A stretch of DNA of 64,000 nucleotides from Natrinema versiforme (GCF_005576615.1 NZ_CP040330.1:2356001-2420000), one strand, 5' to 3'; positions 22,258 to 55,820 are shown, counted from the first letter of the stretch. Program-made: numbers and translations. Notes: generated by a model from the letters alone, not told the origin.

Positions 22258-23178
22258 ATGGCCATACTCGAGGTAGACGATCTCCGGAAGGAGTACGGCG
22301 GCTTCACCGCGGTCGAGGGAAGCTCCTTCGCGATCGAGCGCGGCGAGGTCTTCGGCGTGGTCGGTCCCAACGGCGCGGGGAAGACGACGACGCTGAAGAT
22401 GCTGGCCGGGCTGATCGAGCCCACCGCCGGCACCGCCGTCGTCGCCGGTCACACGCCCGGCGAGCCGGCGATGCAGCGCCGGCTTGGCTTCCTCCCCGAG
22501 GAGTCACCGCTGTACGAGGAGATGACCGCGATCGACTACCTCGAGTTCTTCGCCGACCTCTACGACGTGCCCGCGGACGTGGCCCGCGAGCGGATTCACG
22601 ACTCGCTGGATCGACTGGATCTCGAGCACCGCGACCGGCGGATCGGCAACATGTCGAAGGGGATGCAGCGCAAGGTCGCGATCGCGCGGGCCCTGGTCAA
22701 CGACCCCGACGTGCTGATCTTCGACGAGCCGGCGTCGGGGCTGGACCCGCTGACGACCAACTACATCATCGAGTTCACCCGCGAACTGAGCGAGGAGGGC
22801 AAGACGATCGTCTTCAGCGCGCACAACCTCTTTCACGTCGAGAGCATCTGCGACCGGATCGTCATCATGAACGACGGCCGGATCGTCGCCCGCGGTACGT
22901 TAGAGGCGATCCGAGACGCCCACGGCGGCACGGAGTACCACGTCTACGCGACCGACGACGGCAGCGCCGGTCTCGACGCGACGGTGGGGCCGCTCGAGGT
23001 CACCCGCGAGAACGGGCAGGTCCGCCACGTCGTCGGCGACATGGCCGCCGTCGATGCGGTCCGGGACGCTGTCGAAGCGGCCGGCGGCCGTGTGACCGAC
23101 ATCCAGACGGAGACGCCGAGCCTCGAGGAGATCTTCCTCGAGGTCGCGAGCGAGCCAGCGGAGGAATCCGAGGCGTGA
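22258..23178 (+). CDS. ABC-2 type exporter ATP-binding protein
   Basis: ABC ATPase of 306 aa with Walker A GPNGAGKTTTLKML, signature MSKGMQRKVAIA, Walker B VLIFDEPASGLDP and the His loop FSAHNLFHVE. The additional C-terminal domain of about 80 aa (from about residue 225) is typical of NatA-like ATPases. It starts the rightward cluster 22258-26253; its TGA overlaps the GTG start of the next gene (GTGA), so translation is coupled. With the two permeases downstream it forms one heteromeric exporter, perhaps a sodium or antibiotic exporter. A weak CTTTACT element lies about 30 nt before the start. Confidence 0.93.
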   Translation: MAILEVDDLRKEYGGFTAVEGSSFAIERGEVFGVVGPNGAGKTTTLKMLAGLIEPTAGTAVVAGHTPGEPAMQRRLGFLPEESPLYEEMTAIDYLEFFADLYDVPADVARERIHDSLDRLDLEHRDRRIGNMSKGMQRKVAIARALVNDPDVLIFDEPASGLDPLTTNYIIEFTRELSEEGKTIVFSAHNLFHVESICDRIVIMNDGRIVARGTLEAIRDAHGGTEYHVYATDDGSAGLDATVGPLEVTRENGQVRHVVGDMAAVDAVRDAVEAAGGRVTDIQTETPSLEEIFLEVASEPAEESEA

Positions 23179-25091
23179 GCGACGGTCGCCTCCGCGGAAT
23201 TGTCGCGCGACTTCGGCTGTTCGTCCGTCACCTCCGCGGGGTTCTCGCACGCACGGCCAGAATCGCCCGCTGGGAGGTCTCCCGGAGCGTCGGCACCGTC
23301 GACCGGAAGACGGTGCTGGTCCTCCTCGTGATGGCGCTCGCGATCGGCACCGCCGGGTTCACGGCCGCCGGCGACGGCCTCGGGCTCGAGCGGGAGATCT
23401 ACGTCGTCGGCGTCGACGAGGACAGCCGTTATCACGACGTCGCAGTCCACAGCGAGCAGTTCCGGCCGGTGTCGCTTTCGGAGATCGAGTCCGAGGGCGG
23501 CGGCGATGCGAACGCCGATACCGTCTCGATCCGCGGCGACGCGACCGTCGACGTCGTGGTGACTCGAGACGGGCGGATCGGCCACACCGGCGACAACGGC
23601 GAGGCCGCCTACGACGCCTTTCGCGACGCCGTCGGTGAGTACAACGCGAAGCTGATGGACGAGGAGGACGATCAGGCGGCCGCGTATCCGGTGCTCGTCT
23701 CGCTGGAGTACCAGCAACGAGATCTCGGCGGCTCGAGCGATTCCGGAACGACCGACGGGAGCGGGAGCAGCGGCGGTGGGACCGGGGACGAAACCAGCGG
23801 CGGAGACGGAGCCGGCGAGAGTGCGGACGGCAGCGGTGGAGGCGACCCCGCGACCGGCGGGGGAGCGGACGGTACCGACGGCGGCGGGGACGGCCCCCTG
23901 CAGGTTCCGAACGTCGGCGACGGGTCGACGGCGTCGACCGCGCCGGGAACGCCGGGTTCGATCGCGCCGCCGTTCCCCTTCCAGTCGCTCGTGCTCGCGT
24001 TCCTGTTCGTCGTCCCGATGAACTTCGTCATTCAGGCCTACGGGAGCACGATCATGGACGAACGGGTCAAGCGGCGGGGCGAACTGCTGCTTGTCTCGCC
24101 GGTCTCTCGCTACGAGATCGTCGCGGGGAAGACGCTGCCGTACCTGCTCGGGCTGATCGGCATCGTCGTCGCCATCGCGCTCGCGATCGGCGGCGGGCCG
24201 ATCGCCGTCGCCGCGGCGCTGCCCATCGCGTTGCTGTTCTTGGCGGCGACGTTCGCCGGCGCGATGCTCGCCCGCTCGTTCAAGGAACTGACCTTCGTCA
24301 CGGTCACAATCAGCGTCGTGCTGACGACGTACACGTTCATTCCGGCGATCTTCACCGACGTCCACTCGATCGCGCTGATCTCGCCGCTGACGCTGGTCGT
24401 GACCGACCTCCAAGACGGCTCGATCCGACTGGGGGAGTACCTCTTCTCGACCGGGCCGTTCTACCTGTGTGCGGCCGTGCTCTTCCTGCTGGGGATCGGC
24501 GTCTACCGCGAGGAGGACATGTTCGCCCAGAAGCCGATCCCGACGAAGGTCGTCGACGCGATCGCGAGTCGCATCCGCGGCCGGCGAAGCGTCTTCGTCC
24601 TCTCGATCCTCTTCATCCCGTTCGTCTTCGCGGGCCAACTCCTCGCCGTCGCCCTGCTGTTCGCCCTGCCGGAGTCGTTCGCGGTGCCGGTCATCGTCGT
24701 CGTCGCCGCCGCGATCGAGGAAGTCGCGAAGAGCGTCCACGTCTACGCCGGCTTCGCCCGCTCGCGGTTCGACGCGACGCTCCGGACCGCCGCCGTCCTG
24801 GGCGTGCTCTCCGGAGCCGGCTTCTTCGTCGGCGAGAAGCTCACCCACGTCGTCCAGTTCGTCGGCCTGCCCGACCTGTCGGTCGGCCTCGCCGCCTTCG
24901 GGCCGGCCGTCTCGAGCGACCCGCTGATACTCGTCGCGGTCTTTCTCGCGCCGCTTGCCTTGCACGTCGCGACCGCCGTCTGTTCGGCGGTCGGCGCGAG
25001 CCGCGGTCGGACCGGCTACGCGGCCGGCTTCCTCGCCGCGACGCTCGTTCACGCGGCCTACAATCTGGGGGTGATCCTCCTTGTCTCGTGA
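23175..25091 (+). CDS. ABC-2 permease fused to a PrsW-like membrane protease domain
   Basis: Product of 638 aa starting at GTG 23175, which overlaps the stop of the ATPase gene. Residues 1 to about 420 are an ABC-2 permease with one N-terminal helix, a long extracellular region with a Gly/Ser-rich linker (residues 190-250), then a bundle of helices. Residues from about 450 to the C-terminus look like a PrsW/CPBP-type intramembrane protease: EEVAKSVHVYAGFARSRF, GAGFFVGEKLTHVVQ, LHVATAVCSAVG and LVHAAYNLGVILL keep the spaced Glu/Glu and His residues. The fusion is unusual. It is followed by an overlapping permease gene. Confidence 0.85.
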   Translation: MSDGRLRGIVARLRLFVRHLRGVLARTARIARWEVSRSVGTVDRKTVLVLLVMALAIGTAGFTAAGDGLGLEREIYVVGVDEDSRYHDVAVHSEQFRPVSLSEIESEGGGDANADTVSIRGDATVDVVVTRDGRIGHTGDNGEAAYDAFRDAVGEYNAKLMDEEDDQAAAYPVLVSLEYQQRDLGGSSDSGTTDGSGSSGGGTGDETSGGDGAGESADGSGGGDPATGGGADGTDGGGDGPLQVPNVGDGSTASTAPGTPGSIAPPFPFQSLVLAFLFVVPMNFVIQAYGSTIMDERVKRRGELLLVSPVSRYEIVAGKTLPYLLGLIGIVVAIALAIGGGPIAVAAALPIALLFLAATFAGAMLARSFKELTFVTVTISVVLTTYTFIPAIFTDVHSIALISPLTLVVTDLQDGSIRLGEYLFSTGPFYLCAAVLFLLGIGVYREEDMFAQKPIPTKVVDAIASRIRGRRSVFVLSILFIPFVFAGQLLAVALLFALPESFAVPVIVVVAAAIEEVAKSVHVYAGFARSRFDATLRTAAVLGVLSGAGFFVGEKLTHVVQFVGLPDLSVGLAAFGPAVSSDPLILVAVFLAPLALHVATAVCSAVGASRGRTGYAAGFLAATLVHAAYNLGVILLVS

Positions 25092-26253
25092 TCGCGACCG
25101 CGGTCGTGATCCCGAGCGGCAGTCGGACTCGAGTTCGAGCCGACGAGGCCCGAATCCGCCGGCTCGAGCCGACGGCGGCACCGAGTCGGGATCGACGTGG
25201 GGTGCCCGCTGGGCGGTCGCTCGCCGGGAGCTGCGCTCGCTGCGCTCCGAGAAGACGATCGTGCTGGCGCTGGCGATTCAGCTGTTCATCGCGGCCTTTT
25301 CGTCGTTTCTGGTCGTCGGGCTCGTCTCGCTGTACGATCCGGGCTCGGTCGACGGCTACCAGACGGAGGTCGCCGTCACCGGCGACGACACCGAGGCCCT
25401 CCTTTCGGTCTCGAACCAGCGCGACGGCGTCACCGCCCAGCGGTACGACGACCGCACGGCCGCCTACGAGGCGTTCGAAGCCGGCGCGGTGTCGGCCGTC
25501 CTCGACGCGAACCGGAACGACGAGGGCCGGCTTAGCGTCATCGTCACCGCCCCCGAAGAAGGGTTACAGACCACCCTGCTCGTCGTTCAGCTTCGAGACA
25601 CCTTAGAGAACGTCGAGCGCGTCGAGCGCCAGCAAAACGCCGAGTCCGGGCGACTCGAGCAGTCGCCGGTCCCAGTCCCGTCTCAGGTTCAGGCGAGTCC
25701 CTACGCCGGCTTCACCTACACCATCCTGCTGCCGCTGCTGTGTTTCCTGCCGGTGTTCATCAGCGGCTCGATCGTCGTCGATTCGCTGATCGAGGAGCGC
25801 CAGCGGGGGACCCTCGAGTTGCTCCGGGTCGCGCCGCTCTCGCTCGCGGACGTGATCGACGCGAAACTGTTGGCGATCGCGGCGCTGGCACCGCTGCAGG
25901 CGATCGCGTGGCTCTTCCTGCTGACGGCGAACGGCACGTCGATCGCGGGTCCCGCGGCCCTGGTCGTGTTGGTGGCCGCGCTCTCCCTGCTCGTCGTCAC
26001 GGTCGGGGTCGCGATCGCACTGTGGGCACCGGACCGCCGGCAGGCCCAGTTGCTCTACTCCGTGGCCACCGTCGGCGCGCTGGTCGTCGCGACGATCCTG
26101 CCCGAACACCCCGCGAACACCGTCGCGAAGTTCTCGATCGGGAATCCGACGGCGACGACGTGGGCGTTACTCGCCGGCTACTGCCTGCTCGCGGTCGGCG
26201 CGTTCGTCGCGCTCAGGCGGTGGATCGACCGGCTCGAGCCGGATTCGCTGTAG
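25081..26253 (+). CDS. ABC-2 type exporter permease, TTG start
   Basis: Second permease of the cluster, 390 aa, with one N-terminal helix, an extracellular domain of about 120 aa, then five or six helices around SPYAGFTYTILLPLLCFLPVFI and LIEERQRGTLELLRVAPLSLADVIDAKLLA, the ABC-2 membrane core. The start is TTG 25081: it overlaps the previous gene by 11 bp and is preceded by GGGGGTGAT at 25067-25075, matching the 16S anti-Shine-Dalgarno with a 5-nt spacer; no in-frame ATG suits. It completes the ATPase-permease-permease operon begun at 22258. Confidence 0.85.
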   Translation: MSRDRDRGRDPERQSDSSSSRRGPNPPARADGGTESGSTWGARWAVARRELRSLRSEKTIVLALAIQLFIAAFSSFLVVGLVSLYDPGSVDGYQTEVAVTGDDTEALLSVSNQRDGVTAQRYDDRTAAYEAFEAGAVSAVLDANRNDEGRLSVIVTAPEEGLQTTLLVVQLRDTLENVERVERQQNAESGRLEQSPVPVPSQVQASPYAGFTYTILLPLLCFLPVFISGSIVVDSLIEERQRGTLELLRVAPLSLADVIDAKLLAIAALAPLQAIAWLFLLTANGTSIAGPAALVVLVAALSLLVVTVGVAIALWAPDRRQAQLLYSVATVGALVVATILPEHPANTVAKFSIGNPTATTWALLAGYCLLAVGAFVALRRWIDRLEPDSL

Positions 26254-45595: not shown

Positions 45596-45679
45596 GGTGG
45601 GGTGGCAGAGCGGCCCAACGCGCCTGCCTTGAGAGCAGGTGGCTGTCAAGCCTCATGGGTTCAAATCCCATCCCCACCG
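45596..45679 (+). tRNA. tRNA-Ser(UGA)
   Basis: An 84-nt class II tRNA without encoded CCA. The acceptor arms GGTGGGG (45596-45602) and CCCCACC (45672-45678) pair fully, with G73 at 45679. The anticodon stem CCTGC/GCAGG encloses CTTGAGA, so the anticodon is TGA (reads UCA, serine). A long variable arm (GGCTGTCAAGCC part) is present, and the T arm ATGGG-TTCAAAT-CCCAT is complete. It also serves as the left attachment site of the integrated element; all but its first five bases recur at 54023-54101. Confidence 0.95.
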
Positions 45680-45692
45680 CTTCCTTGCGATT

Positions 45693-45712
45693 TTGGTGAA
45701 ACCGATCACCAA
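45693..45712. promoter_or_regulatory. Inverted repeat TTGGTGA-N6-TCACCAA beside the attachment site
   Basis: Perfect 7-bp arms TTGGTGA (45693-45699) and TCACCAA (45706-45712), 13 bp inside element A. A related site, TTGGTGA-N6-TCACATT, is at 45993-46012. The same half-site is in the control region at 50405-50432 and 50640-50648. Such repeated motifs near an attachment site could bind a recombinase or excision factor, or the element's repressor. Confidence 0.45.
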
Positions 45713-46051
45713 CTTGTCAATCCTCGAGTCGCTCTCACCCAGATAAGATTGATCCACGGTGATAAATCTCCGCCACGGTGGTCCAAGGCTAATCGAAGTA
45801 GGATTGAATCTCAAACCTCGCTACGGTTACAGCATCGGGAGGGATTCTTACCGCATTCCCCGCAAGCAACCGCCTTGTAGTAGTGCTACCCACCCCAGAT
45901 ACGGTATGAAAGTGGAACGACTTCACCTTGGTATTCCACCACATTATCTTTTATAAGGGATCAAGAACAGTAGCATCTATTGATGAAGTAGGTTGGTGAG
46001 ATGGATCACATTGGTACTCCAATACAGGTAGTAGAAAAAATTCAGGTTCAC

Positions 46052-46089
46052 AAAACCCTCTCCCCACACAAGGTGGGGATTCGGGTTTT
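46052..46089. repeat. Nested hairpin in element A
   Basis: AAAACCC (46052-46058) pairs with GGGTTTT (46083-46089), and inside it CCCCAC (46062-46067) pairs with GTGGGG (46073-46078) around the loop ACAAG. The 38-bp structure has two stems separated by 3 and 4 unpaired bases. It lies in non-coding DNA and could be a terminator, a small structured RNA or a replication hairpin. Confidence 0.5.
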
Positions 46090-46350
46090 ACGAAAGAACG
46101 TAAGAATAGCACCTCCACCTACGGAGCACTCCTAAAACGGTGTTGGTTGGGAAGAAAGCATAATCCTGTGAAACTCCCCTCCGCATTCAACTGGATCTGT
46201 CTTTCAATCCTTTATAAGTATCAAATTCAGTCTTACTTGATGTAGGAGTTAGAAGAACTTCTACAAAGCAAACCATTATCGATATCAACCGAAATATCGA
46301 ATGTATTATCGTCAGACATGGGATAAGCGGGTGAGACTATCTGTTCCTTA

Positions 46351-46968
46351 TCACTCGCTTGTCAGTTCTTTTACTTTTGTAGCTGCTTTTCTCCAATCTA
46401 CACTGTATTTCTCGGCAAGGTGCTTGAATCGAGGGAGATCGTGATTGTATACACGTTCACCATTGTGGTCCATGATATCTCTCACCTGAATCCTATCTTC
46501 ATACTCTTCTGGCCGCTCTATTGTCCTATTTTGAGCAACTAAAATAGAGCCAAGAGCAAGCGCCTCAAGCCCGCCAAACCTATTGAAGCCTCTTCCATCC
46601 AACTGTTGAACCAAACGTTTCACATCGTCTTTGAGGCGGGTAGAAAGGTGGAGTGAGTCACACAACGACTCTGCAAGTTTCACCTTATCAGCGTTTGATC
46701 TTTTACCAGTATCATCATTGTAGTAGCCATGCTGATGTTTCCAAAGTCGACTATATTTTGCTGAGTCTTTGGCTTGATCGGCATGAAACGTCGTTCGTTG
46801 CTGTCCTTGGGCTGCATGCCGATTTTTCGGTCTATCTTGATCTTTTAAGGCTTCACCGCTGGTAAGAGAACCATCACCTTTGCCTGCAACAACAGGTTGT
46901 TCATCGTCTGTTTCACCGATCTGCTCGCCAACTCTACAATCGTAACTATATGTACTTGCTTGAGACAT
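46351..46968 (-). CDS. Element A protein, possibly with a cyclin-like helical domain
   Basis: Not recognised. Protein of 205 aa, the last gene of the leftward block. The N-terminal 60 residues are polar and disordered-looking. Residues about 95-150 (NADKVKLAESLCDSLHLSTRLKDDVKRLVQQL, then GGLEALALGSILVAQN) have the helix spacing of a TFB/cyclin repeat, and the C-terminal FKHLAEKYSVDWRKAATKVKEL could complete it. This is only an impression. An AT-rich tract upstream (47010-47021) might give it its own promoter. Composition matches element A, not the chromosome. Confidence 0.6.
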   Translation of the reverse strand: MSQASTYSYDCRVGEQIGETDDEQPVVAGKGDGSLTSGEALKDQDRPKNRHAAQGQQRTTFHADQAKDSAKYSRLWKHQHGYYNDDTGKRSNADKVKLAESLCDSLHLSTRLKDDVKRLVQQLDGRGFNRFGGLEALALGSILVAQNRTIERPEEYEDRIQVRDIMDHNGERVYNHDLPRFKHLAEKYSVDWRKAATKVKELTSE

Positions 46969-47049
46969 GGGAAAGAAATCGACAGTGTTCCGCTGTCGAA
47001 TTAACTGTTTAAAAATTTATGCAACCGTGGGGCGAGAAAGAATATTATT

Positions 47050-48930
47050 TCATTCTTGCATATATTCGGATTCTATCTCGAGTTGCGTTTCATCGAATGA
47101 TATGCTAACGCCAAGTTCGGTCGTATACCGCTCATCAGCCGCAACGCGGTGTTTAACACCATTCACTTCATACGTGATAGGTGGCATATCGCTGTTTTCG
47201 AACACACCATTACAAGCCATTACTGATTTGATATAATCGTATGGGAGAATGTATGGCTCTCCTTTGATTGTGATATTTCCTTCAGTTTCTTCTTCGAGAT
47301 GTTTTCTAAATTCCTTCTTTGCTTCCCGAATTGTGTCTTCAAGTACTTTTGTATCAGCTTCTACAACAGGACCAGAATACTCATACCCACCTGTCCGCTC
47401 GAGTAGCGGTGGGTACGTCACTTTCACTCGAGCAAAACGTGAAGATGTCCACGCACTTGGACGATAGCTCCCCTCCTCCACACTTCTTGTCATGGCTTCC
47501 ATGTGCGATTCACCATACACTTCTAACGTGTTGAATGGTTTAATGTCGTAGAGAGCCTGATTCTCGAGGGTGGTTATTGTCGCGAAGGCATCACGATCAG
47601 TTATGTCACTTATATCGCCAGTTGCATCGCCTGCTTCTTTCCACTCCTCGTCGGAAAACAATCTACGACTGAAGGCACCAATATCAGTGTCTTCACTTGG
47701 CTCTCCAAGACCAGCATTCGTGTTATCGAAAAGGAGAACTGGTCCCTGCTCGCTCGGTTCAAAGTGCCACTTCCCATCAAGCCTTCCAGCAAACCAATTT
47801 AGAAGATCAACCATATTATTACGATTCATCTGGAAGTGTTTTTGGCCACCTCTAATTCCGCTGGTTATGTCAGTGCCAAACGCCCAATCAAATATATCGT
47901 CGACAAGATCGTCAACGTTGAGTTGGAATTGACCTACAACTGGTAGATCGCCAGTAAGTGCAAAGTCTTCCGAACGAGCTTCGTTTCCACCGAGGTTGGA
48001 CGTATCTTCTTTCTCCGCTTTAACCGACTGAATACCAGCAATATACGTTTTCACGTCGTCAAAAATGGTACGACGTTGAATACCAACAGGACGTGACGCT
48101 TCATCAACTCCATCAATGGCGAAGTTAATAACTTGCTCTATCGTTGGTTCTTCATACGACTTGGAGACCTGAATGCCTCTCATTAGGTCCGCAGGGTCGT
48201 AGACCCACATTTTCATTGAACCATTCTGACTCGCTGGACCTACTCCACCCACGTAGCCATAGTGGGCTATCTGGTAGGTGTCATAATCATGATCGTAGAG
48301 ATAGATCCTACATTCGTCGTACTCGTCTCCATCGGTCTGGAAACCATTGATATACTGAATGATAGATTCGCCATCCCATTCAGCGGGGAATTCAACCTTT
48401 GCAGTGCGGGTGATATCCGCTGGACCATCTTTGTTGATCCACAACTCACAGAGCGTTATCGGAATTCGGACCCATTCGTCGCCATCTTTAATCTCCACTC
48501 GAGCCTCAGCCTTTTTTGGCGGGTTTTCTGACTTTGTAGAGAGGTCGCGAACGAGACTTTGAGTAGTGAGATTGTCTGGATCGACGTATTCTGAGAGATT
48601 GAAATCCTGTCTCCGAGCACCAGTGAAACTCTCCTCGTGTTCGGCGGAAACTGTTATTCCAAGTTGATCTTTCTCAAGATCAAGCTCTTCAGTTTCAACT
48701 TTCAGTTCTATGTGTGCTCTGTATCTATTGTAGCTAAGTTGCTCACTTGAAATGACACTGGCAGTTGCGTCGTCACTTGGATTCACACCACTTCCACTAT
48801 AGACAGCACTTGTCACGTCAGCAGGACAGTTACTTACATCAACATAGAACCGATAAGTTTCCTCTTGGAGTAGTGGATTTTCCCACTTCCCAAGTAGGTT
48901 AACAGACTCTAATTGTAGAAATTCGACCAT
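47050..48930 (-). CDS. Large element A protein, phage-tail-hub-like at best
   Basis: Not firmly recognised. A 626-aa soluble acidic protein with no signal peptide or membrane helix. The central stretch PADITRTAKVEFPAEWDGESIIQYINGF, RIYLYDHDYDTYQIAHYGYVGGVGPASQNGSMKMWVYDPADLMRGIQVSK and EEPTIEQVINFAIDGV resembles the layout of tail baseplate hub or late-control proteins (a VxG-type beta barrel followed by a helical segment), but I cannot confirm this. It is the largest gene of the leftward block and is separated by 2 bp from the micro-ORF upstream. Confidence 0.75.
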   Translation of the reverse strand: MVEFLQLESVNLLGKWENPLLQEETYRFYVDVSNCPADVTSAVYSGSGVNPSDDATASVISSEQLSYNRYRAHIELKVETEELDLEKDQLGITVSAEHEESFTGARRQDFNLSEYVDPDNLTTQSLVRDLSTKSENPPKKAEARVEIKDGDEWVRIPITLCELWINKDGPADITRTAKVEFPAEWDGESIIQYINGFQTDGDEYDECRIYLYDHDYDTYQIAHYGYVGGVGPASQNGSMKMWVYDPADLMRGIQVSKSYEEPTIEQVINFAIDGVDEASRPVGIQRRTIFDDVKTYIAGIQSVKAEKEDTSNLGGNEARSEDFALTGDLPVVGQFQLNVDDLVDDIFDWAFGTDITSGIRGGQKHFQMNRNNMVDLLNWFAGRLDGKWHFEPSEQGPVLLFDNTNAGLGEPSEDTDIGAFSRRLFSDEEWKEAGDATGDISDITDRDAFATITTLENQALYDIKPFNTLEVYGESHMEAMTRSVEEGSYRPSAWTSSRFARVKVTYPPLLERTGGYEYSGPVVEADTKVLEDTIREAKKEFRKHLEEETEGNITIKGEPYILPYDYIKSVMACNGVFENSDMPPITYEVNGVKHRVAADERYTTELGVSISFDETQLEIESEYMQE

Positions 48931-48932
48931 AT

Positions 48933-49022
48933 TTATTTAAATTCCTTAGACCCCTCTTCATTTTCAGTGTCGTTCTCAGAACGGTACTCTGTCTCACCGC
49001 AAACAGTGGTGATTTCATCCAT
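48933..49022 (-). CDS. Possible 29-aa micro-ORF in element A
   Basis: ATG at 49022 overlaps the stop of the upstream gene (TAATG) and the frame ends with TAA 3 bp before the start of the large gene. The product begins MDEITTVCGETEYRSEN and ends SKEFK. The tight packing supports translation, but the length is too short to judge. It would be coupled to its neighbours. Confidence 0.35.
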   Translation of the reverse strand: MDEITTVCGETEYRSENDTENEEGSKEFK

Positions 49023-49660
49023 TAGAATTGAGATGTGCTGATATTGATTCCACCGTTGGTTGTTCGGTTCACCTCACCCCGATTCTGCTTATGGCGTTCT
49101 TCTTGCTCCGCACTCGTTTTCCCCTTCAAAACACGAGTATCAACGAGAGTCTGTCGAACTTCACTCGAGCGGATATTGGCGGTAGAAAAATTCTCGGCCA
49201 GAATATCAGCCATTTCGCTGATAGAGAGACCATGTTCAAGATAGAGGATTGACAAGAAAAGCGGGTTCTGTGGATCGATCATGTCCTCTGGTAGCTCGTC
49301 GCCAAGAAGTTGGTCAAGACGGGAAACAGATACATCAAAACTCCCGCCTGTTGGAAGGTCAATCCCGTGAAGCTCCGCAGCTTTATCCACAACTCCTACA
49401 TCCACGTTCAATTCGGCGGCTATCTCTTCCTTGTCATGGATACTCCCATGATTAGCGAGTTTTTCGATGTCGTTGTTACTGGGTCTCAACAACTCCCCTT
49501 CATCTGGGTAATCACTATATCCGCGTTCTAAGAGGGGCAATTCAGTCTGAAAGCCAACTATCTCTCTATCAGACAGAATCTCTTCTACGTCGTCTGAACG
49601 CCCTTCTTTTGCCTTTCCATCCCGCTTTCTCCCCTCGATAATGTCCTTCGCTTCAATCAT
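49022..49660 (-). CDS. Element A protein with HTH-like segments
   Basis: Not recognised by family. A 212-aa product from ATG 49660 (MIEAKDIIEGRKRDGKAK), polar and highly charged. Two segments look like helix-turn-helix units: NDIEKLANHGSIHDKEEIAAELNVDVGVVDKAAELHG near the middle and GLSISEMADILAENFSTANIRSSEVRQTLVDTRVLKGK near the end. It may be a DNA-binding or virion-assembly protein. The start is set at ATG 49660 because the longer frame to 49720 would overlap the preceding gene. Confidence 0.7.
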   Translation of the reverse strand: MIEAKDIIEGRKRDGKAKEGRSDDVEEILSDREIVGFQTELPLLERGYSDYPDEGELLRPSNNDIEKLANHGSIHDKEEIAAELNVDVGVVDKAAELHGIDLPTGGSFDVSVSRLDQLLGDELPEDMIDPQNPLFLSILYLEHGLSISEMADILAENFSTANIRSSEVRQTLVDTRVLKGKTSAEQEERHKQNRGEVNRTTNGGINISTSQF

Positions 49661-49661
49661 A

Positions 49662-49940
49662 TTAATATTCACTCCTTGGAACTGCGTAAAATGCCTTCTC
49701 TGTCGCACAATCAACTGCAAGAAACTGGCTGCCAGATTCTAACTCAATTTCTCCCTCATCAACAGCCAGAATTACGTATTCAGTTATCTCTCCAATACCA
49801 CCTACTCCAATGTGAAGTGTGCCATATCCCAACTGTGGGCTACCAAGTCTATCAGTGGTGATCCGCTTGATGTTACTTGGCAACTCGACGATTTTCCCGC
49901 TCTCGGGTTTGAAATCAGTTGAATAGATTTCTGTAGCCAT
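49662..49940 (-). CDS. Small element A protein 1 (beta-rich)
   Basis: Unknown protein of 92 aa: ATEIYSTDFKPESGKIVELPSNIKRITTDRLGS, then VILAVDEGEIELESGSQFLAVDCATEKAFYAVPRS. Mostly beta-prone, no membrane segment. The pattern I-x-LP-x-NI is shared with the adjacent 81-aa protein (SIELPTNI), so the two may be related. It is read leftward, 2 bp after that gene, and 1 bp before the HTH-like gene. A structural or host-interaction role is only a guess. Confidence 0.7.
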   Translation of the reverse strand: MATEIYSTDFKPESGKIVELPSNIKRITTDRLGSPQLGYGTLHIGVGGIGEITEYVILAVDEGEIELESGSQFLAVDCATEKAFYAVPRSEY

Positions 49941-49942
49941 TC

Positions 49943-50188
49943 TTAGACTTCCTCAAGATACTCGAAACTGGTTGAGTCAAAATTAAGAACTAACACATCA
50001 GTGGCGATAGGGGGCTGTGGGTTGTTACCCGCCAATTCCCTACGACGTGTATAGGTTGCAGTAGTTTCACTTTCATCTTCAACCACATACAACCATTCTC
50101 CACTAACATGGATCGCACTTTCAGTAATGTTTGTAGGTAGTTCGATACTCTCTCCCTCGCTAACTCGATATTTATTGATAGCAGCCAT
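49943..50188 (-). CDS. Small element A protein 2 (beta-rich)
   Basis: Unknown protein of 81 aa: AAINKYRVSEGESIELPTNITESAIHVSGEWLYVVEDESETTATYTRRRELAG, ending in VLVLNFDSTSFEYLEEV. It shares an ESIELPTNI-type segment with the following 92-aa protein. There is no hydrophobic helix. It is in a tight leftward block: 2 bp from the neighbours on each side. Composition is like the element. Confidence 0.68.
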   Translation of the reverse strand: MAAINKYRVSEGESIELPTNITESAIHVSGEWLYVVEDESETTATYTRRRELAGNNPQPPIATDVLVLNFDSTSFEYLEEV

Positions 50189-50190
50189 TA

Positions 50191-50364
50191 TTAGAAAATT
50201 TCCTCAATCGTTTCTTCACCCTCTTCACGCAGTAGGGCCTTGCAACCCTCTTCAATTACCTTTCCTTGGGGAACGAAACTATCCCCGTAAATCAGGTGCT
50301 TGGTGGTCTTAACGACGAACTTTTCGCGTTCTGAGACTCGTACGGTCTTATCTCGACTTGCCAT
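50191..50364 (-). CDS. 57-aa protein heading the leftward block of element A
   Basis: Short gene, ATG 50364 to TAA 50191-50193, encoding 57 aa that begin MASRDKTVRVSEREKFVVKT and end EEGEETIEEIF. It lies 2 bp upstream of the 81-aa gene with no other candidate. The compact, charged sequence with a basic N-terminus is plausible for a DNA-binding or structural protein. It is the first gene of the block and faces the divergent control region at 50365-50648. Confidence 0.6.
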   Translation of the reverse strand: MASRDKTVRVSEREKFVVKTTKHLIYGDSFVPQGKVIEEGCKALLREEGEETIEEIF

Positions 50365-50404
50365 AATTGTGTAGCACAGACAGCATGACAGTTCACCCGT
50401 TTAG

Positions 50405-50432
50405 ATCACCAATTCTCTCGTACATTGGTGAT
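50405..50432. promoter_or_regulatory. Operator-like inverted repeat in element A divergent control region
   Basis: ATCACCAAT (50405-50413), 10 nt, ATTGGTGAT (50424-50432): perfect 9-bp arms in the 284-bp region between the leftward block and the 98-aa gene. A third exact ATTGGTGAT lies at 50640-50648, abutting the ATG of that gene. The TTGGTGA core is also at the left end of the element (45693, 45993). A repressor or recombination factor of the element is the likely ligand. Confidence 0.55.
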
Positions 50433-50648
50433 TCACTGGCTAACTCGAGTGATTGGGTCAGCCAATTTCATAGGTCGCTCTGTCCTACTGCCTCTATTAT
50501 GTGACTAATTACAGGTAAATTCGAATACTTATAAAATCGGGGTGAAAGTGAAAACAACAGCCATGCAGTCTTGCGATTTGGCCTGAAAAACCGAAAGAGG
50601 TAGTGATTCGGTAACTATCTGGTATTCATTTGGGGAGTTATTGGTGAT

Positions 50649-50945
50649 ATGAAATTAAGTGAAAGTACTCGAGAGAGGGAAGTACCGATGCAGTCCATGA
50701 TGGCGGAAAACGAACGTGCAGCAGTTCGAAGTGGCTACGAATACGCGCAGGATCTTGCAAGCGGGGTAGCAGACCAATTCCCCAATGGAACAAAGATCAA
50801 TCCGAGGGAAGAGATTCTCTGGGCGGCAGAACAGGTGACTGACGATCCTCAAGAGCGGAATGAACTTCTACCATACGTGTGTTATGGATTCCAGCAAGGT
50901 ACTCTCGATCGACTGTATAAGGGGATAGATCGATATCGGTTGTAG
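50649..50945 (+). CDS. 98-aa hypothetical protein of element A
   Basis: Unknown acidic helical protein: KLSESTREREVPMQSMMAENERAAVRSGYEYAQDLASGVADQFPNGTKINPREEILWAAEQVTDDPQERNELLPYVCYGFQQGTLDRLYKG. Start ATG 50649 is immediately preceded by ATTGGTGAT, whose GGTGAT could also be a Shine-Dalgarno with no spacer. TTATAAAA (50529-50536) is a likely TATA box; it would give a leader of about 90 nt with a 7-codon reading frame at 50563. Divergent from the leftward block. Possibly a regulator. Confidence 0.6.
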   Translation: MKLSESTREREVPMQSMMAENERAAVRSGYEYAQDLASGVADQFPNGTKINPREEILWAAEQVTDDPQERNELLPYVCYGFQQGTLDRLYKGIDRYRL

Positions 50946-51140
50946 GGACATGGGGATAGTGTAGTAACGGAAAGGTAGTTTTTCGCGCTGATATCCTCCT
51001 ATTTTCGCGGACGGCCATGCCTTGCTTGAGCGCACGCACGTAAGGGCCAGAATCTCATTAGGAGGGATATCGCAGAAACAACAGTGAATGCAATTCACAT
51101 TCTAAGAAGACTTTTCCATTCGGTACCCTGTCACTCTGAT

Positions 51141-51566
51141 ATGGAAAGGAGAAAGGTACTCACAGCATTCGGTACTGTCCTGGTTAGTGGATGTCTCTCG
51201 AGTAGCAGTAATGAAGGTAATGGGAATGGTGAGCAACAGGAAGATCCTGTGATGAACGCAGAGTATGTTGGGACCACTGAAGAGCACAATGAGACTGCAA
51301 TCGAATCAGTCGAATATTCAATCGATGGAGCTTGCAGGGCGACGATTTCTGTAGTTTTCGCAAATCAGAAACCAGCGGAAGGCTATATCGGAGTGAGATT
51401 GTATAGAAACGAGGAAGAGGTAGGTGCAACCAGCCAACAGTTGGGTAAATTCGGCGATAACACGACTGAGAATGTTGATTTGCAATACTGCGAGTTTGAA
51501 AAATATAACTCCTTCCGCTTAGCAGTACTTCAGCCTGAAGAGGAAAAAGAAAATCAATCCGAATAG
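51141..51566 (+). CDS. Secreted Tat lipoprotein of element A
   Basis: Protein of 141 aa. The N-terminus MERRKVLTAFGTVLVSGCLS has the Arg-Arg start, hydrophobic stretch and lipobox Cys at about residue 17 of a Tat-exported haloarchaeal lipoprotein. After an acidic Gly/Ser/Asn linker comes a beta-rich domain (YSIDGACRATISVVFANQKPAEGYIGVRLYRNEEEV) with three Cys. It would be anchored on the outer face of the membrane. The start is set at ATG 51141; the frame upstream to 51084 does not suit. Possibly surface exclusion or host interaction. Confidence 0.75.
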   Translation: MERRKVLTAFGTVLVSGCLSSSSNEGNGNGEQQEDPVMNAEYVGTTEEHNETAIESVEYSIDGACRATISVVFANQKPAEGYIGVRLYRNEEEVGATSQQLGKFGDNTTENVDLQYCEFEKYNSFRLAVLQPEEEKENQSE

Positions 51567-51787
51567 GACACAGAAATTCCCTTAGAACCGCACCGCAACC
51601 ACTACACTCCCCACCTTACTACAATACTATGAACTGTATCAACTTAATACTTACCCAAGTAGGTGAAGCTCTTCCTATGTCCATAGTTTGGCTCGAGGGA
51701 CGTTTCGGTTTCAAGACGATGGAAACCATTCAGACAATCTTGAGACGGATCTATGAGTCTGCAATTGGCTTAGGAGATAATTGAGGG

Positions 51788-52390
51788 TTATTCCGCCATG
51801 GCTGTTCCAATACGTCGTTCAGTTGGCGCATGGAGATAGGGTTTGATCGCATTATAGCTATTCCACCCACCGATATTCATCATAGTACGGGCGTCAACAG
51901 TGTTTTCCCTTTCTGTGAGGTGGTAATTGGCCCATGAGCGGCGTAGATCATGGGAAGATACGTTGATCCATCTTTCATTATCAGTTTCCTCTGCTACGTC
52001 TTGAGCGGCTTCACGGACCCATCTACGGACTGACGATGCTGATACTGAGATAATTGATTCATCTTCATCCCGATCTCTTTCTCGAGTGAACTTAGAGATA
52101 TTCCGCTCTACTCTCTCTGGCATCCACGCATCACGCATTTTCGGATCTCCACCGTCTGTGTTCTTACCCTCTACCTGGAACAGCCAACAGTCACCTTCTT
52201 CGCTCCACCGAATATCGTTCAGTGTGACCTTTGGTACTTCATCACTCCGAAGGCCGCACTGTGTCATGAATTGAATAGCGATCTCCCTTTGCCAATCGGT
52301 TCGACCTGCTGCTTGCTCGAGTTGCTTGCATTCGTCACGGTTCAACCAGCATTTCTTACGCCCACTGCTTGCTTCCTCAATGGCTACCAT
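51788..52390 (-). CDS. Short tyrosine recombinase (catalytic domain only)
   Basis: Integrase-like protein of 200 aa that lacks most of the N-terminal core-binding domain. Catalytic landmarks are the Arg in MTQCGLRSDEV, HDLRRSWANYHL (His-x-x-Arg) and the later GGWNSYNAIKPYLHAPTE, with Trp-Tyr and the nucleophile candidate Tyr in PYLHAP. It starts at ATG 52390. Its promoter region (52391-52412) contains GTTCTA and TAGAAC as a dyad, possibly autoregulatory. It could act on its own site or with the 382-aa integrase next to it. Confidence 0.85.
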   Translation of the reverse strand: MVAIEEASSGRKKCWLNRDECKQLEQAAGRTDWQREIAIQFMTQCGLRSDEVPKVTLNDIRWSEEGDCWLFQVEGKNTDGGDPKMRDAWMPERVERNISKFTRERDRDEDESIISVSASSVRRWVREAAQDVAEETDNERWINVSSHDLRRSWANYHLTERENTVDARTMMNIGGWNSYNAIKPYLHAPTERRIGTAMAE

Positions 52391-52705
52391 GTTCTACACA
52401 AGTTGTTAGAACTATTCGCTTATCAAAGTGGCGGTTAGTCTCTCCAAGCCGAATATCACTTATAAAGAAGCGCCTCAATGATACTCCCCGTAAGCAAGTA
52501 GACAAAGAACTTGTGTATATTCCCTTCTCCCACCCCTTGGAAATTAGAACCATTGCCGTGGCACTAATTCACAGGGCTGGGGTGGAATGACTTTCCGTGA
52601 GAGAACCAAATTTATCTCAGCATATATGGAATCCCCCTTCGGCCAATTGGGTCCCATATTTCTGGCTACTGGTTGAGAACCCGATTAACAGATTCAGAAA
52701 GAGAA
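52391..52705. other. Gap between the two recombinase genes
   Basis: About 315 bp without a gene. A dyad GTTCTA (52391-52396) and TAGAAC (52407-52412), with ACAAGTTGT between them, abuts the start of the short recombinase. An AT-rich patch near 52448-52458 (CACTTATAAAG) may be a promoter. Otherwise nothing was recognised. Confidence 0.4.
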
Positions 52706-53854
52706 CTATCCCATACGATCAAGAGCGTTCCTGCGGTCTTCTACAGGGGCTTGATCGTACTTGAAGGTCGTTCGGGGGGATTGGTGCCGTAACTGGCTCT
52801 GTGCCGCTGCAAGGCCACCCTCTCTCGCCATATACGTCCCTACAGAGTGGCGAAGACTGTACCATGTTAGTGAGCGATTCTCCATATTGATGTTTGCTAC
52901 CTCTGCTATTTTTTCGAGTACGTATTTGAGCGACGATGAGCGGTATGGATTTCCGTGACGGGTTAACCAGAGTTGATCACTATCTGTATACTTATCGTAC
53001 AGTTGTCTCTCCCTGAGCCAATTCTGTAGCAACTCTGCTGTAGATCGCTGTAGTGAGACAATCCAGTTCTCACGGTTCTTACTCGACTCTTCTTTGGGGA
53101 TACGGAGAACTGCGTTATCGATATCGACCCACTGGACTGTTGCCCTCGCTACTTCAATGGGGCGTAAACCAGCATCAAGTGAGACACAAATGAGAGAGGC
53201 GTATTTGAATCCCTCTGCGTTTTCAAAGTCAGAGGGCTGTACTGCTGATACTGGTTTGTCAAGACGATAAGATAGGTATTCTTTCCACCGCTGTCGTTCT
53301 TCTGGCGACATAGCTGCATAAGCGGGAATAGAGTCCCATTGCAGTGCTGCTTCTCTAAGCCTCTGACGTTCCTCTCTGGTCAAATAGTCCTGTGGTGATG
53401 TTCCTGTAGCGCCATTGAAGGTGATTTCTGGTTCCCACTCATCCCCTTTGAACCGAAAGAACATCTTCAGCGATTTCTGGATATTCGACTTGTGGCTCTC
53501 ACTGTAGTCACTATAGGCTAACTCTTGTGTATAGGTATCTGCATGGTCTGTCGTAACAGCAGTAGTGTATCCATCGTTGTTGTCCCAGACCCATCTATAG
53601 AATACGTCAGTATCGTGAGCACGCCGCTTTACTACATCGAAGGAATATCCCTTGGCTGAATCAGGATCTTTCCCGAGGTGTAGCATCCAGTTGATTAGTT
53701 CTTCACGGTGATGTCGGTAGTCAGTCCGCTGCTTAGTATTCAATCGCTCTCTCGTTGGCTCAGGGATAAGAACAATCGTTCCCTCATCAGTACTGATTGT
53801 GTCCTTATCTGGCGTACGTTGAGTATCGAAGTCAGCTTCCTCGTGTACTGTCAT
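52706..53854 (-). CDS. Tyrosine recombinase (integrase), element A
   Basis: XerC/D-like integrase of 382 aa. An N-terminal core-binding domain (ELINWMLHLGKDPDSAKGYSFDVVKRRAHDTDVFYRW) is followed by the catalytic domain: Arg I in SLDAGLRPIEVARA, Lys in VLRIPKEESSKNRENW, His/Arg II in LTWYSLRHSVGTYM, His III in LRHQSPRTTFKYDQAP and Tyr in FKYDQ. The start ATG 53854 lies about 170 bp from the broken tRNA copy. It is read leftward away from that site. This is the likely integrase for the tRNA-Ser site; a remnant of a relative survives at 55414-55446. Confidence 0.93.
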   Translation of the reverse strand: MTVHEEADFDTQRTPDKDTISTDEGTIVLIPEPTRERLNTKQRTDYRHHREELINWMLHLGKDPDSAKGYSFDVVKRRAHDTDVFYRWVWDNNDGYTTAVTTDHADTYTQELAYSDYSESHKSNIQKSLKMFFRFKGDEWEPEITFNGATGTSPQDYLTREERQRLREAALQWDSIPAYAAMSPEERQRWKEYLSYRLDKPVSAVQPSDFENAEGFKYASLICVSLDAGLRPIEVARATVQWVDIDNAVLRIPKEESSKNRENWIVSLQRSTAELLQNWLRERQLYDKYTDSDQLWLTRHGNPYRSSSLKYVLEKIAEVANINMENRSLTWYSLRHSVGTYMAREGGLAAAQSQLRHQSPRTTFKYDQAPVEDRRNALDRMG

Positions 53855-53964
53855 TATATTCGATACCCTATTTCGATCAATAATTCATCCAATCGAGCTT
53901 GGATTAGCATCATGGTTTGGTCACTCCCTTAGCGAGAGCGAACACGAGGTGAGGTGGGTTCCGT

Positions 53965-54020
53965 CCGAAATCGTACGATTTCGGCGGGAATAGTGGAGTC
54001 GAACCGTAGGGAGACTCCAC
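53965..54020. repeat. Palindrome and stem-loop beside the right attachment site
   Basis: A 20-bp perfect palindrome (53965-53984, core AAATCGTACGATTT) is followed by GTGGAGTC (53993-54000) and GACTCCAC (54013-54020), an 8-bp stem with a 12-nt loop that ends two bases before the tRNA repeat. They resemble short haloarchaeal palindromic repeats and could be recombinase arm sites. Confidence 0.5.
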
Positions 54021-54022
54021 GT

Positions 54023-54101
54023 GGTGGCAGAGCGGCCCAACGCGCCTGCCTTGAGAGCAGGTGGCTGTCAAGCCTCATGGGTTCAAATCCCATCCCCACC
54101 G
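54023..54101 (+). pseudogene. Partial tRNA-Ser copy (right attachment site of element A)
   Basis: Identical over 79 bp to bases 6-84 of the tRNA-Ser gene at 45596-45679. The preceding bases are unrelated, so the 5' acceptor strand is lost and the acceptor stem cannot form (only G-C pairs at 3 of 7 positions). It cannot be a functional tRNA. It marks the right boundary of element A. Confidence 0.9.
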
Positions 54102-54103
54102 TT

Positions 54104-54133
54104 GCTGTCGCGAACAATCCCGTGAGCGACAGC
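54104..54133. repeat. Stem-loop between attachment sites
   Basis: GCTGTCGC (54104-54111) and GCGACAGC (54126-54133), an 8-bp stem with a 14-nt loop, directly behind the partial tRNA. It belongs to the 85-bp spacer between two tRNA-derived fragments. Confidence 0.5.
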
Positions 54134-54354
54134 GAGGTCGATGGGATTTGAATCAGGGAGTGAAACGAGCGCAGCGAGTGGAACGACCGTGGTTCAAATC
54201 CCATCCCCACTGCTTCCTTGCGATTTTAAGGGATCGTATCACCATCAGCTCTATCCTCGAACTGCTCTCACCTAGATAAGGATCTCACCGAGAGAAGCGA
54301 TAATGTGCTACAGAATCTGTATCCTTATAGGAGTAGCAGTATATGGCCGTAGCA

Positions 54355-54888
54355 ATGTCAGATAGTGTGAGTGAAATTGGCGCAAATGAGAGAGACTCTC
54401 TTAGAGCGATTGGGGATGATGCCCTAAATATATTTAGAGCAGGTTTGTATTTAATTGTAATATACATTTCAATACTTTCTCTGACATTGAACACAGGTGG
54501 AAGTGACTACATCGAGAATGTTATCAATTCATCTTATACAATTAATGGAATTGTCTTCTGGATTGGGTCACTCACAAGCAGTATATTAACCCACAGAATG
54601 GCACGACGGGTAACACTCCAAGAACACTACTCTCAGTTGGGACGGATAGACGATAAGTTTGACATTCTAAATTTTGCCACTGCCAGCACCGTTGGCCTAT
54701 TGATTTCCGTATTTTCGCTTATCTTCGGTCTTCTTGCAGGTTGGTCGAATACCGTGAACGAGTCATCAACAGGTGTAGGCATTGAGCAACCAATTGCCAT
54801 CATCGGATTATCATTTATCTTTATAGTTTCTATTTACAGCATACTATCGATCATAGATATATTGAGAGACAGATGGGGGCCCTATTAG
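54355..54888 (+). CDS. Four-helix membrane protein of element B
   Basis: Unknown protein of 177 aa with about four membrane helices: AGLYLIVIYISILSLTLN, NGIVFWIGSLTSSILTH, TVGLLISVFSLIFGLLAGWS and AIIGLSFIFIVSIYSILSIIDIL. Start ATG 54355 (MSDSVSEIG) is chosen since CTTATAG (54324-54330) is centred 28 nt before it; the earlier ATG 54343 is too close. Composition is A+T-rich like the elements. It is followed by a gene for a membrane-tethered protein. Confidence 0.7.
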   Translation: MSDSVSEIGANERDSLRAIGDDALNIFRAGLYLIVIYISILSLTLNTGGSDYIENVINSSYTINGIVFWIGSLTSSILTHRMARRVTLQEHYSQLGRIDDKFDILNFATASTVGLLISVFSLIFGLLAGWSNTVNESSTGVGIEQPIAIIGLSFIFIVSIYSILSIIDILRDRWGPY

Positions 54889-54955
54889 GAAGATCCTACG
54901 ACTGTCATAGCGTTTCATCATTGGGTTAAATACATTCCACTTCTATATCTGAAAT

Positions 54956-55417
54956 ATGGTGAATGATCTTGCTGTCGGGATACTAACAGTTCTCGGTGGG
55001 GCTATTAGTGGCTTCATTGGAATATCCTATTCAGAATATCAAAGCCGGCGAAAACAACGTAAAGAATTGAAAGAATGGTATAACACAACGATATTATTAG
55101 CGAAACGAGTAGAACGAATTCACTCAGAGGATTTTAACGGAAGTGGGGATTATATTGGGGATGCACTATCAGGCGTAATTGGACGACTGACGGAGCATTT
55201 AATGGATTCCCCAAGTGATGTTGACACTGAAATCCTCAACCGTTGTGAAGAGTTAGCAGCCGAATGTGAAAACGCACGGGCCTTCCTGAGAGCTGATAGA
55301 ATAAGAAATACACGCGCCAGTTCTGAACAGGGGCCTCCAACCAGAAATGCCGTCGAAAAGGCACGAGATGTTAGAGTAATGGCTGAGGACGCAAAGACAG
55401 ATGTTGGCTGGCTCTAA
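54956..55417 (+). CDS. Membrane-anchored hypothetical protein of element B
   Basis: Unknown protein of 153 aa with one N-terminal helix (LAVGILTVLGGAISGFIGISYSEY), then a basic stretch (QSRRKQRKELKEW) and a helical soluble part (CEELAAECENARAFLRADRIRN). ATG 54956 is preceded by TTAAATA centred 27 nt upstream, so it has its own promoter. Its stop overlaps the stop of the recombinase remnant on the opposite strand. It may form a membrane complex with the four-helix protein; a defence or exclusion function is a guess. Confidence 0.7.
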   Translation: MVNDLAVGILTVLGGAISGFIGISYSEYQSRRKQRKELKEWYNTTILLAKRVERIHSEDFNGSGDYIGDALSGVIGRLTEHLMDSPSDVDTEILNRCEELAAECENARAFLRADRIRNTRASSEQGPPTRNAVEKARDVRVMAEDAKTDVGWL

Positions 55418-55446
55418 CCCATCCGATCAAGAGCGTTTCTGCGATC
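55414..55446 (-). pseudogene. C-terminal remnant of a tyrosine recombinase gene
   Basis: Read on the minus strand, 55446-55414 encodes DRRNALDRMG and a TAG stop. These ten residues are the exact C-terminus of the 382-aa integrase of element A, but with different codons (for example CGG for CGT). The frame breaks right upstream, so the rest of the gene has been deleted. Orientation and position next to the right T-arm fragment mirror element A. Confidence 0.75.
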
Positions 55447-55484
55447 TAAACAGTAGAATTTGAATCAGCGAGCGAAACGACCGT

Positions 55485-55504
55485 GGTTCAAATACAATCC
55501 CTAC
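55485..55504. repeat. Degenerate T-arm fragment (right edge of element B)
   Basis: Corresponds to the 20 bases at 45658-45677 of the tRNA, differing at several positions (AATACAATCCCTAC). It follows CGACCGT, as does the fragment at 54191-54210. It is the outermost trace of the tRNA-Ser integrations seen. Confidence 0.65.
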
Positions 55505-55820
55505 TATTCCCAACAATTCTTGACCACACGCAACAAGGGGGGGAGAACAGGTCGGACAAGATCTAATACCGTGATTGAAACCGCTAGTCCTGTTATCGTG
55601 GCAACACGGAATCGCCACGCCCTCCCCAACCGATTCGTTCGCTCGCCCTGCTCGCTTCACTCATCCCTCGCACACTGTTGTCGGCCGGCTTCGCTTTCAC
55701 TCAGCCGGCCAACAGCGCGCGCCATCGCGGTGGTCGATCAGTCCGGACGGCTCGAAGAGACGCGACACCAAGCGCTAGCTAGTGAAAAGAGAGCGCCAAA
55801 GCAGAAGAACCGCTCCGGAT
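55505..55820. other. Gap between element B and the GntP gene
   Basis: About 315 bp without a convincing gene. A strong hairpin lies at 55675-55715: CTGTTG and GGCCGGC pair with GCCGGCCAACAG, with a bulge. It could be a terminator of the leftward GntP gene or a palindromic repeat. Above it is A+T-richer element-like sequence, below it chromosomal-like G+C-rich sequence, so the island probably ends at about 55.5-55.6 kb. Confidence 0.45.

Follow-up and report, generated by a model that had tools for sequence, protein, structure and literature searches.

We analysed a window of 64,000 nucleotides (the whole stretch, with positions counted from its first letter) from the main chromosome of the haloarchaeon Natrinema versiforme (NZ_CP040330.1:2356001-2420000; host genome G000) and compared it with 28 genomes of the same genus. 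In the window, an intact tRNA-Ser(UGA) gene at position 45596 is followed by a near-complete copy and by shorter fragments of itself. A preliminary description had taken these for the traces of related elements that inserted one after another and decayed in order, the outermost being the most degraded. While its sequence observations were correct, this single-cause reading turned out to be only half right. Very probably two layers overlap at the locus: an old array of non-coding units behind the tRNA, of a class-wide type and here named tail units, and two integrative elements of one family, A and B.

A tail unit consists of a first hairpin (M1), an inverted copy of the T-arm (iT), a second hairpin (M2) and a direct copy (T) of nucleotides 52/53-73 of the tRNA, together ~90-200 bp. 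In the window array one unit is well preserved (54102-54212) and another has decayed (55456-55506). The features of the array are:

45596-45679, plus strand: intact tRNA-Ser(UGA), also the left attachment site (attL) of element A (ARAGORN, call span 45596-45680; Rfam tRNA, 52.3 bits)
54023-54101, plus strand: 79-bp tRNA copy without the first nucleotides, right attachment site (attR) of A and old chromosomal boundary (identical to 45601-45679, 79/79)
54102-54143, plus strand: M1 of tail unit 1, type TTGCTGTCGC..GCGACAGC (the tRNA is immediately followed by this module in L006, L009, L021, L022, L029 and L031)
54140-54152, minus strand: iT of tail unit 1, GATGGGATTTGAA (pairs with the T copy at 13/13 positions)
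54153-54190, plus strand: M2 of tail unit 1, type TCAGGGAG..GACCGTGG (same type in congeners and in 69 contigs of GTDB species)
54191-54212, plus strand: T copy 2 (tRNA nucleotides 52-73), GGTTCAAATCCCATCCCCAC(TG), which closes tail unit 1 and after which B starts (positional identity profile)
55456-55506, plus strand: decayed tail unit 2 with iT, M2 and T copy 3 (5 mismatches in 22; sequence)

The 79-bp copy and the two T-arm fragments reported earlier were all present at accurate coordinates. A second ARAGORN match was obtained at 54020-54101; this copy is a pseudo-tRNA, because its 5' acceptor strand is replaced. T copy 2 differs from the tRNA 3' end at 1 of 22 positions, and T copy 3 (GGTTCAAATACAATCCCTAC(TA), 55485-55506) at 5 of 22. 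The common sequence before the fragments was also confirmed, as ATTTGAATCAG stands upstream of both. An inverted T-arm copy, GGGATTTGAA, had been overlooked in the first reading, and each T-arm fragment therefore closes a hairpin. The shared sequence had been regarded as an element end; however, ATTTGAATCAG belongs to the tail units and is present in relatives without an element. Likewise, the fragments are not element traces, as the same fragment with its upstream module stands behind this tRNA in element-free congeners, an outcome that the preliminary description had itself named as refuting. Among the 28 congeners, 24 carry 1-3 units behind this tRNA-Ser, nearly all without any element, and the M2 type of window unit 1 recurs in L011, L014, L016, L019, L025, L028, L032 and L033. 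Serial insertion of related elements thus stood for A and B; it fell for the T-arm fragments and for the sequence shared by the right ends.

The T copy is sharply bounded. Over 153 tRNA/copy pairs, identity was 0.88-1.00 at nucleotides 52/53-73 and 0.17 at nucleotide 51; the pair search demanded at most 5 mismatches in nucleotides 54-73, so that the plateau is partly selected, whereas the 5' edge and the fall after nucleotide 73 are not. At tRNA-specific positions, T matched its own tRNA at 10.2 of 11 and other tRNAs at 4.7 of 11. The iT also matched its own tRNA better than others (10.6 versus 8.6, gapped alignment, Wilcoxon p ~ 1e-22). The candidate view of iT as a constant sequence of all units, based on ungapped counts (1.75/4 own, 1.19/4 others), was overturned by this gapped alignment. 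Calculated with DNA parameters, hairpin stability reached a median z of -4.7 for iT-M2-T and of -1.5 for M1, and T-runs were found directly after the tRNA and after its copies. The units are hairpin DNA of ~90-200 bp in which no genes, and no integrase, were found; direct copies of the tRNA 3' end flank them, and relatives have the corresponding site empty. Mean T-copy mismatches were 0.68, 1.28, 1.44 and 3.0 for units 1 to 4 (n = 95, 29, 9 and 4). The decay with distance that had been read as a visible age order is this general trend of tail-unit arrays, and the element insertions are not dated by it.

Two side observations concern the arrays at other loci. A ~60-bp insert with two hairpins (GTCGTTCGAAA..TTTCGTGATGACGA..TCGAACCACGAG) lies inside M1 and inside M2, as a mini-element nested in tail units; it occurs in L012, L013, L018, L029, L030 and L031 (tRNA-Ser), and a similar one in L245 (tRNA-Phe). 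The T-loop variant TTCGAATCC is carried by the array T copy alone in L011 and by both tRNA and T copy in L014, while iT retains TTTGAA; this suggests that the tRNA and the array copies exchange sequence.

In the host, units also stand behind tRNAs for Gly, Ile, Lys, Phe, Val, Arg, Ser, Glu, Met, Pro, His, Asp and Leu, and each ends in a copy of the 3' end of its own tRNA. About 21 of the 48 chromosomal tRNA genes have at least one copy, nearly all copies lying within 0.7 kb of the tRNA. A core motif (GGATTYGAA-N18-48-TTCRAATCC) was found in 265 of 292 haloarchaeal genomes (72 of 77 genera), and the reversed pattern, used as control, in none. In a sample of the phylum the motif occurred in 41 of 43 haloarchaea and in 2 of 204 other genomes (G483 and G541); the reversed control was found in one of the 204. 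A stricter M2-type pattern, applied to 84,980 species, gave 72 sites on 69 contigs; 66 sites lay directly 3' of a tRNA and most others at contig ends. According to the record titles all were halophilic archaea, except two contigs (2 sites) of one unspecified Euryarchaeota metagenome-assembled genome. When loci were picked by pattern alone, 56 of 59 had a tRNA of matching strand upstream. Rfam searches of 12 loci returned tRNA and unrelated or sub-threshold matches, and no family for the units. No description of tail units was found in the open-access literature; subscription papers lay outside this search and an earlier mention is possible. The units are class-wide in haloarchaea, yet seem undescribed.

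The strict pattern was absent from viral contigs, and a looser pattern matched 17 viral contigs, in none of which a haloarchaeal tail unit was demonstrated. Seven GC-rich viral contigs (L308, L309, L310, L314, L315, L318, L320) share a nearly perfect palindrome, GGATTTGAACC[AG]TG[GT][AT]CCTCTGG..CCAGAGG[AT][AC]CA[CT]GGTTCAAATCC, an inverted duplication resembling the tRNA T-arm region and possibly the element attachment site (attP) or a tRNA feature of other prophages.

Turnover was followed at the tRNA-Phe locus of 29 Natrinema genomes, with a tree built from the upstream 1.4 kb. Occupied and empty sites continue into the same flank downstream and differ by precisely one unit with its 20-nt T copy. 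In the cleanest occupied/empty pairs, flank identity was 0.96 after the T copy versus 0.52 directly after the tRNA (G003/G005), and 0.93 versus 0.49 (G015/G014). On the upstream tree, G003/G005, G010/G011 and G023/G002 are sister pairs and G007/G008 near neighbours; G003/G005, G010/G011 and G007/G008 are among those that differ by the presence or absence of one unit with its T copy. One unit type was found in four downstream flank backgrounds, each of which was also found empty. These exact differences show turnover of whole units.

In our reading, modules were reassorted as well: the window M1 type is combined with three types of M2, a different M1 type is combined with four, and one M1 core is inverted in G027. 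The T-copy variant TTCACAATCC keeps company with one M2 type across three M1s (L245, L248, L254), and iT-M2-T can therefore move as a block with its own T. Near-identical unit bodies (92.6% over 122 bp) stand at tRNA-Leu and tRNA-Val of two related genomes, the T copy matching each tRNA.

The second layer consists of the two integrative elements, with the following features:

45680-54022, no strand: element A, integrated, 8.3 kb, tailed-virus-derived (bounded by the tRNA and its 79-bp copy; same anatomy at the same tRNA in G111)
45682-45766, plus strand: left end of A, common to B, G111, G001 and G027 (sequence comparison)
47050-48930, minus strand: 626-aa protein, baseplate-hub-like (tblastn to Haloarcula tailed virus 2 'baseplate hub')
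51788-52390, minus strand: 200-aa tyrosine recombinase, catalytic domain only, second recombinase of A (Phage_integrase E=1.3e-10; PHROG 216 integrase)
52706-53854, minus strand: 382-aa XerA-like tyrosine recombinase, likely the integrase of A (Phage_integrase E=2.1e-19)
54213-55453, no strand: element B, related to A but decayed, containing two short open reading frames at 54343-54888 and 54956-55417 (homology of its left end to that of A)
55414-55447, minus strand: scrap of an A-type integrase C-terminus, LDRRNALDRMG* (30/34 identical)

Element A is a real integration into tRNA-Ser itself, which left the 79-bp attR. It has the marks of a tRNA-targeted integrative element: tyrosine recombinase genes inside (52706-53854, 51788-52390), a direct tRNA repeat at both ends (79/79 bp) with the intact tRNA at one (45596), an independent relative with the same boundaries, and an empty site in congeners. 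The relative is in G111, from another genus of the family, which has a 6.2-kb element at the same tRNA-Ser with a related left end and the integrase in the same position, its counterpart of the 382-aa recombinase being 92% identical. At the right end of the G111 element stands a near-complete tRNA copy that starts at the same tRNA position as in A, and in both G000 and G111 the copy carries the host's own tRNA alleles. Because the G111 anatomy and the host-allele copies agree, the 79-bp copy is the attR of a family with an unusually long attachment site. The 626-aa protein matched a baseplate hub from Haloarcula tailed virus 2 at 30% identity over 76% of its length (E=1e-56), and at least part of A therefore has a tailed-virus origin. 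No A-type integrase was found in IMG/VR, A was not found in plasmids, and PADLOC detected no defence families in A or B.

The match between the left ends of A and B was confirmed (alignment ~85 bp, score 39 versus a maximum of 19.5 among 1000 shuffles). Shared chromosomal flank was ruled out, since the sequence is absent from element-free congeners; among the 28 it occurs only in G001, directly after the tRNA, and in G027, after the third T-arm copy. Element B is a decayed relative of A from which the right end and most of the integrase have disappeared. No tyrosine recombinase gene lies inside B; the 34-bp C-terminal scrap alone remains, aligned to the end of the A integrase with a score of 26 versus a shuffled maximum of 14, and it is fused to the inverted T-arm of the old tail unit. 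Relatives of the second B protein (54956-55417) were found in 2 of 193 other haloarchaea (3 of 194 with its own genome). In G027 the A-like left end stands behind two units; either A-like elements may target array T copies, or integration came first and units were later acquired between tRNA and element. A and B are related elements accreted at one tRNA and are a new addition to a known kind, because tandem integration at archaeal tRNAs is known (PMC8371274).

Two further loci of the host may be mentioned here. At L281 (G000:C2:2806700-2822700) the second T copy of a tRNA-Gly(tcc) lies 5.8 kb downstream of the gene and may mark a further integrated element. On the secondary contig C3, ~12 tRNA genes lie within 2.8 kb (23121-25911; L049, L052, L056), as in some large viruses or plasmids.

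We tentatively regard the units as cassettes whose movement depends on site-specific recombination at T and iT, with some help from homologous recombination, and give this mechanism, which we infer from the comparisons above, somewhat less than an even chance. The T copy, and perhaps iT too, would serve as recombination sites of minimal mobile cassettes; whole units would enter or leave between T copies, M1 and M2 would be swapped at T and iT, and the real tRNA would retain its intact 3' end throughout. The agent might be an A-like tyrosine recombinase acting in trans or short-repeat homologous recombination, and larger elements would also integrate into tail-unit arrays. Several points weigh against this mechanism. 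Presence and absence alone cannot separate gain from precise loss via the ~22-bp direct repeats. The gamma M1 was found at this tRNA-Ser only (29 genomes), and local recombination is therefore favoured over free transposition; dispersed REP-like repeats (repetitive extragenic palindromes) were ruled out by the same restriction. The matched T copies at tRNA-Leu and tRNA-Val are not explained by a simple crossover of attP with a chromosomal attachment site (attB). No enzyme could be connected with the units, and neither excised circles nor new insertions were seen. That B used T copy 2 as its attB is likewise something we infer, and the unit could have arrived later between tRNA and B.

Pure homologous recombination, in which old arrays decay via ~22-bp T copies and iT copies and spread from species to species by allelic exchange with no dedicated mobility, appears rather unlikely to be sufficient. 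It would fit the single locus of the gamma M1, the M1/M2 combinations that break at iT, the T variant that travels with its M2, and the inverted M1 core in G027. Yet at tRNA-Phe one unit type stands in four flank backgrounds, each of them with empty sites too, near-identical bodies occur at different tRNAs of related genomes with a matched T at each, and 22 bp is short for such exchange. It is also unlikely that selection maintains the units as structures with a function for tRNA genes at the RNA or DNA level (a decoy for 3'-end processing, a terminator or a fork barrier), multiplied by slippage or homologous recombination. Class-wide conservation, the stable hairpins, the T-runs after tRNA and copies, and an iT that fits its own tRNA agree with this view; however, over half of the host chromosomal tRNAs have no unit, orthologous tRNAs of sister species are found with or without one, and module sequences can be completely different at the same locus.

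Insertion at the tRNA 3' end by a Cas1/casposase-like enzyme or a single-strand transposase that duplicates its target site, with T as the ~20-22-bp duplication and iT as guide, would explain why the T copy fits whichever tRNA is hit and why occupied and empty sites differ by an exact 20-22-bp duplication. We consider it very improbable: terminal inverted repeats were not seen at unit ends, the T variant inherited with its M2 indicates that T can be cassette-borne, and no enzyme of this type was linked to the units. Least probable are attR scars of successive related elements with the outermost oldest, an explanation valid for A and B and refuted for the fragments. The relatedness of A and the more decayed B, and known tandem integration of archaeal elements at one locus (PMC8371274), had spoken for it. 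Against it, the fragment with the same M1, iT and M2 modules follows the tRNA in element-free congeners, fragments stand behind all sorts of tRNAs, the fragment occurs as a precise ~100-bp insertion between sister species, and nearly all host T copies lie less than 0.7 kb from the tRNA, larger elements being few.

The nearest precedent known to us for tail units is the tyrT locus of Escherichia coli, where 178-bp tandem non-coding repeats end in the 3' end of tRNA-Tyr, at one locus of one species group. These also are tandem non-coding units closing with a short tRNA 3'-end copy; we know of no report of an inverted T-arm, shuffled modules or many tRNAs for them. Cis-mobilizable elements, known with the tandem accretion of integrative and conjugative elements, are gene-poor segments between attachment sites, stacked at one site, kilobases long and at few loci. 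Tail units are similarly gene-poor, flanked by attachment sites and tandem, but differ in being ~100 bp, hairpin-built and class-wide. In integron attC arrays short segments also close with a hairpin, one of inverted core sites to which iT-M2-T may correspond, and modules also turn over beside a fixed site, whereas tail units have no cargo open reading frame and use the tRNA T-arm instead of attI; no integron integrase was found at the window array, the recombinases of A scoring 19.1 bits against a cut-off of 265. Miniature inverted-repeat transposable elements, REP palindromes and haloarchaeal palindrome-associated elements (PMC3119063) are also short non-coding palindromic repeats; unlike these, tail units occur almost only at tRNA 3' ends and carry the sequence of that tRNA, and gamma, the sole M1 searched, is not dispersed. 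The tRNA-targeted tyrosine-recombinase elements (SSV, pNOB8, pT26-2 and SNJ2 families; PMC8371274), for which tandem insertions at tRNAs are known, resemble A and B in the integrase, the restored tRNA at attL and the direct tRNA repeat at attR. In contrast to those families, the attachment site of A covers nearly the whole tRNA (79 bp), and the tail units are gene-free, ~90-200 bp, behind all kinds of tRNA, and equipped with an inverted T-arm.

Genes for tRNAs are a main landing site of archaeal mobile DNA, and short tRNA fragments are routinely taken as attachment-site scars. In haloarchaea this reading is unsafe, as a T-arm fragment lying only a few hundred bp from a tRNA usually belongs to a tail unit. 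Such units are class-wide, stand behind many tRNAs, turn over between sister species, and carry a direct and an inverted copy of the T-arm of their tRNA. The haloarchaea as a class could maintain integron-like arrays at their tRNA genes, whose gene-free hairpin cassettes would recombine at the universal T-arm, turn over, swap modules and offer viruses and plasmids extra landing sites; this broader picture is a tentative one, conceivable and well short of an even chance.

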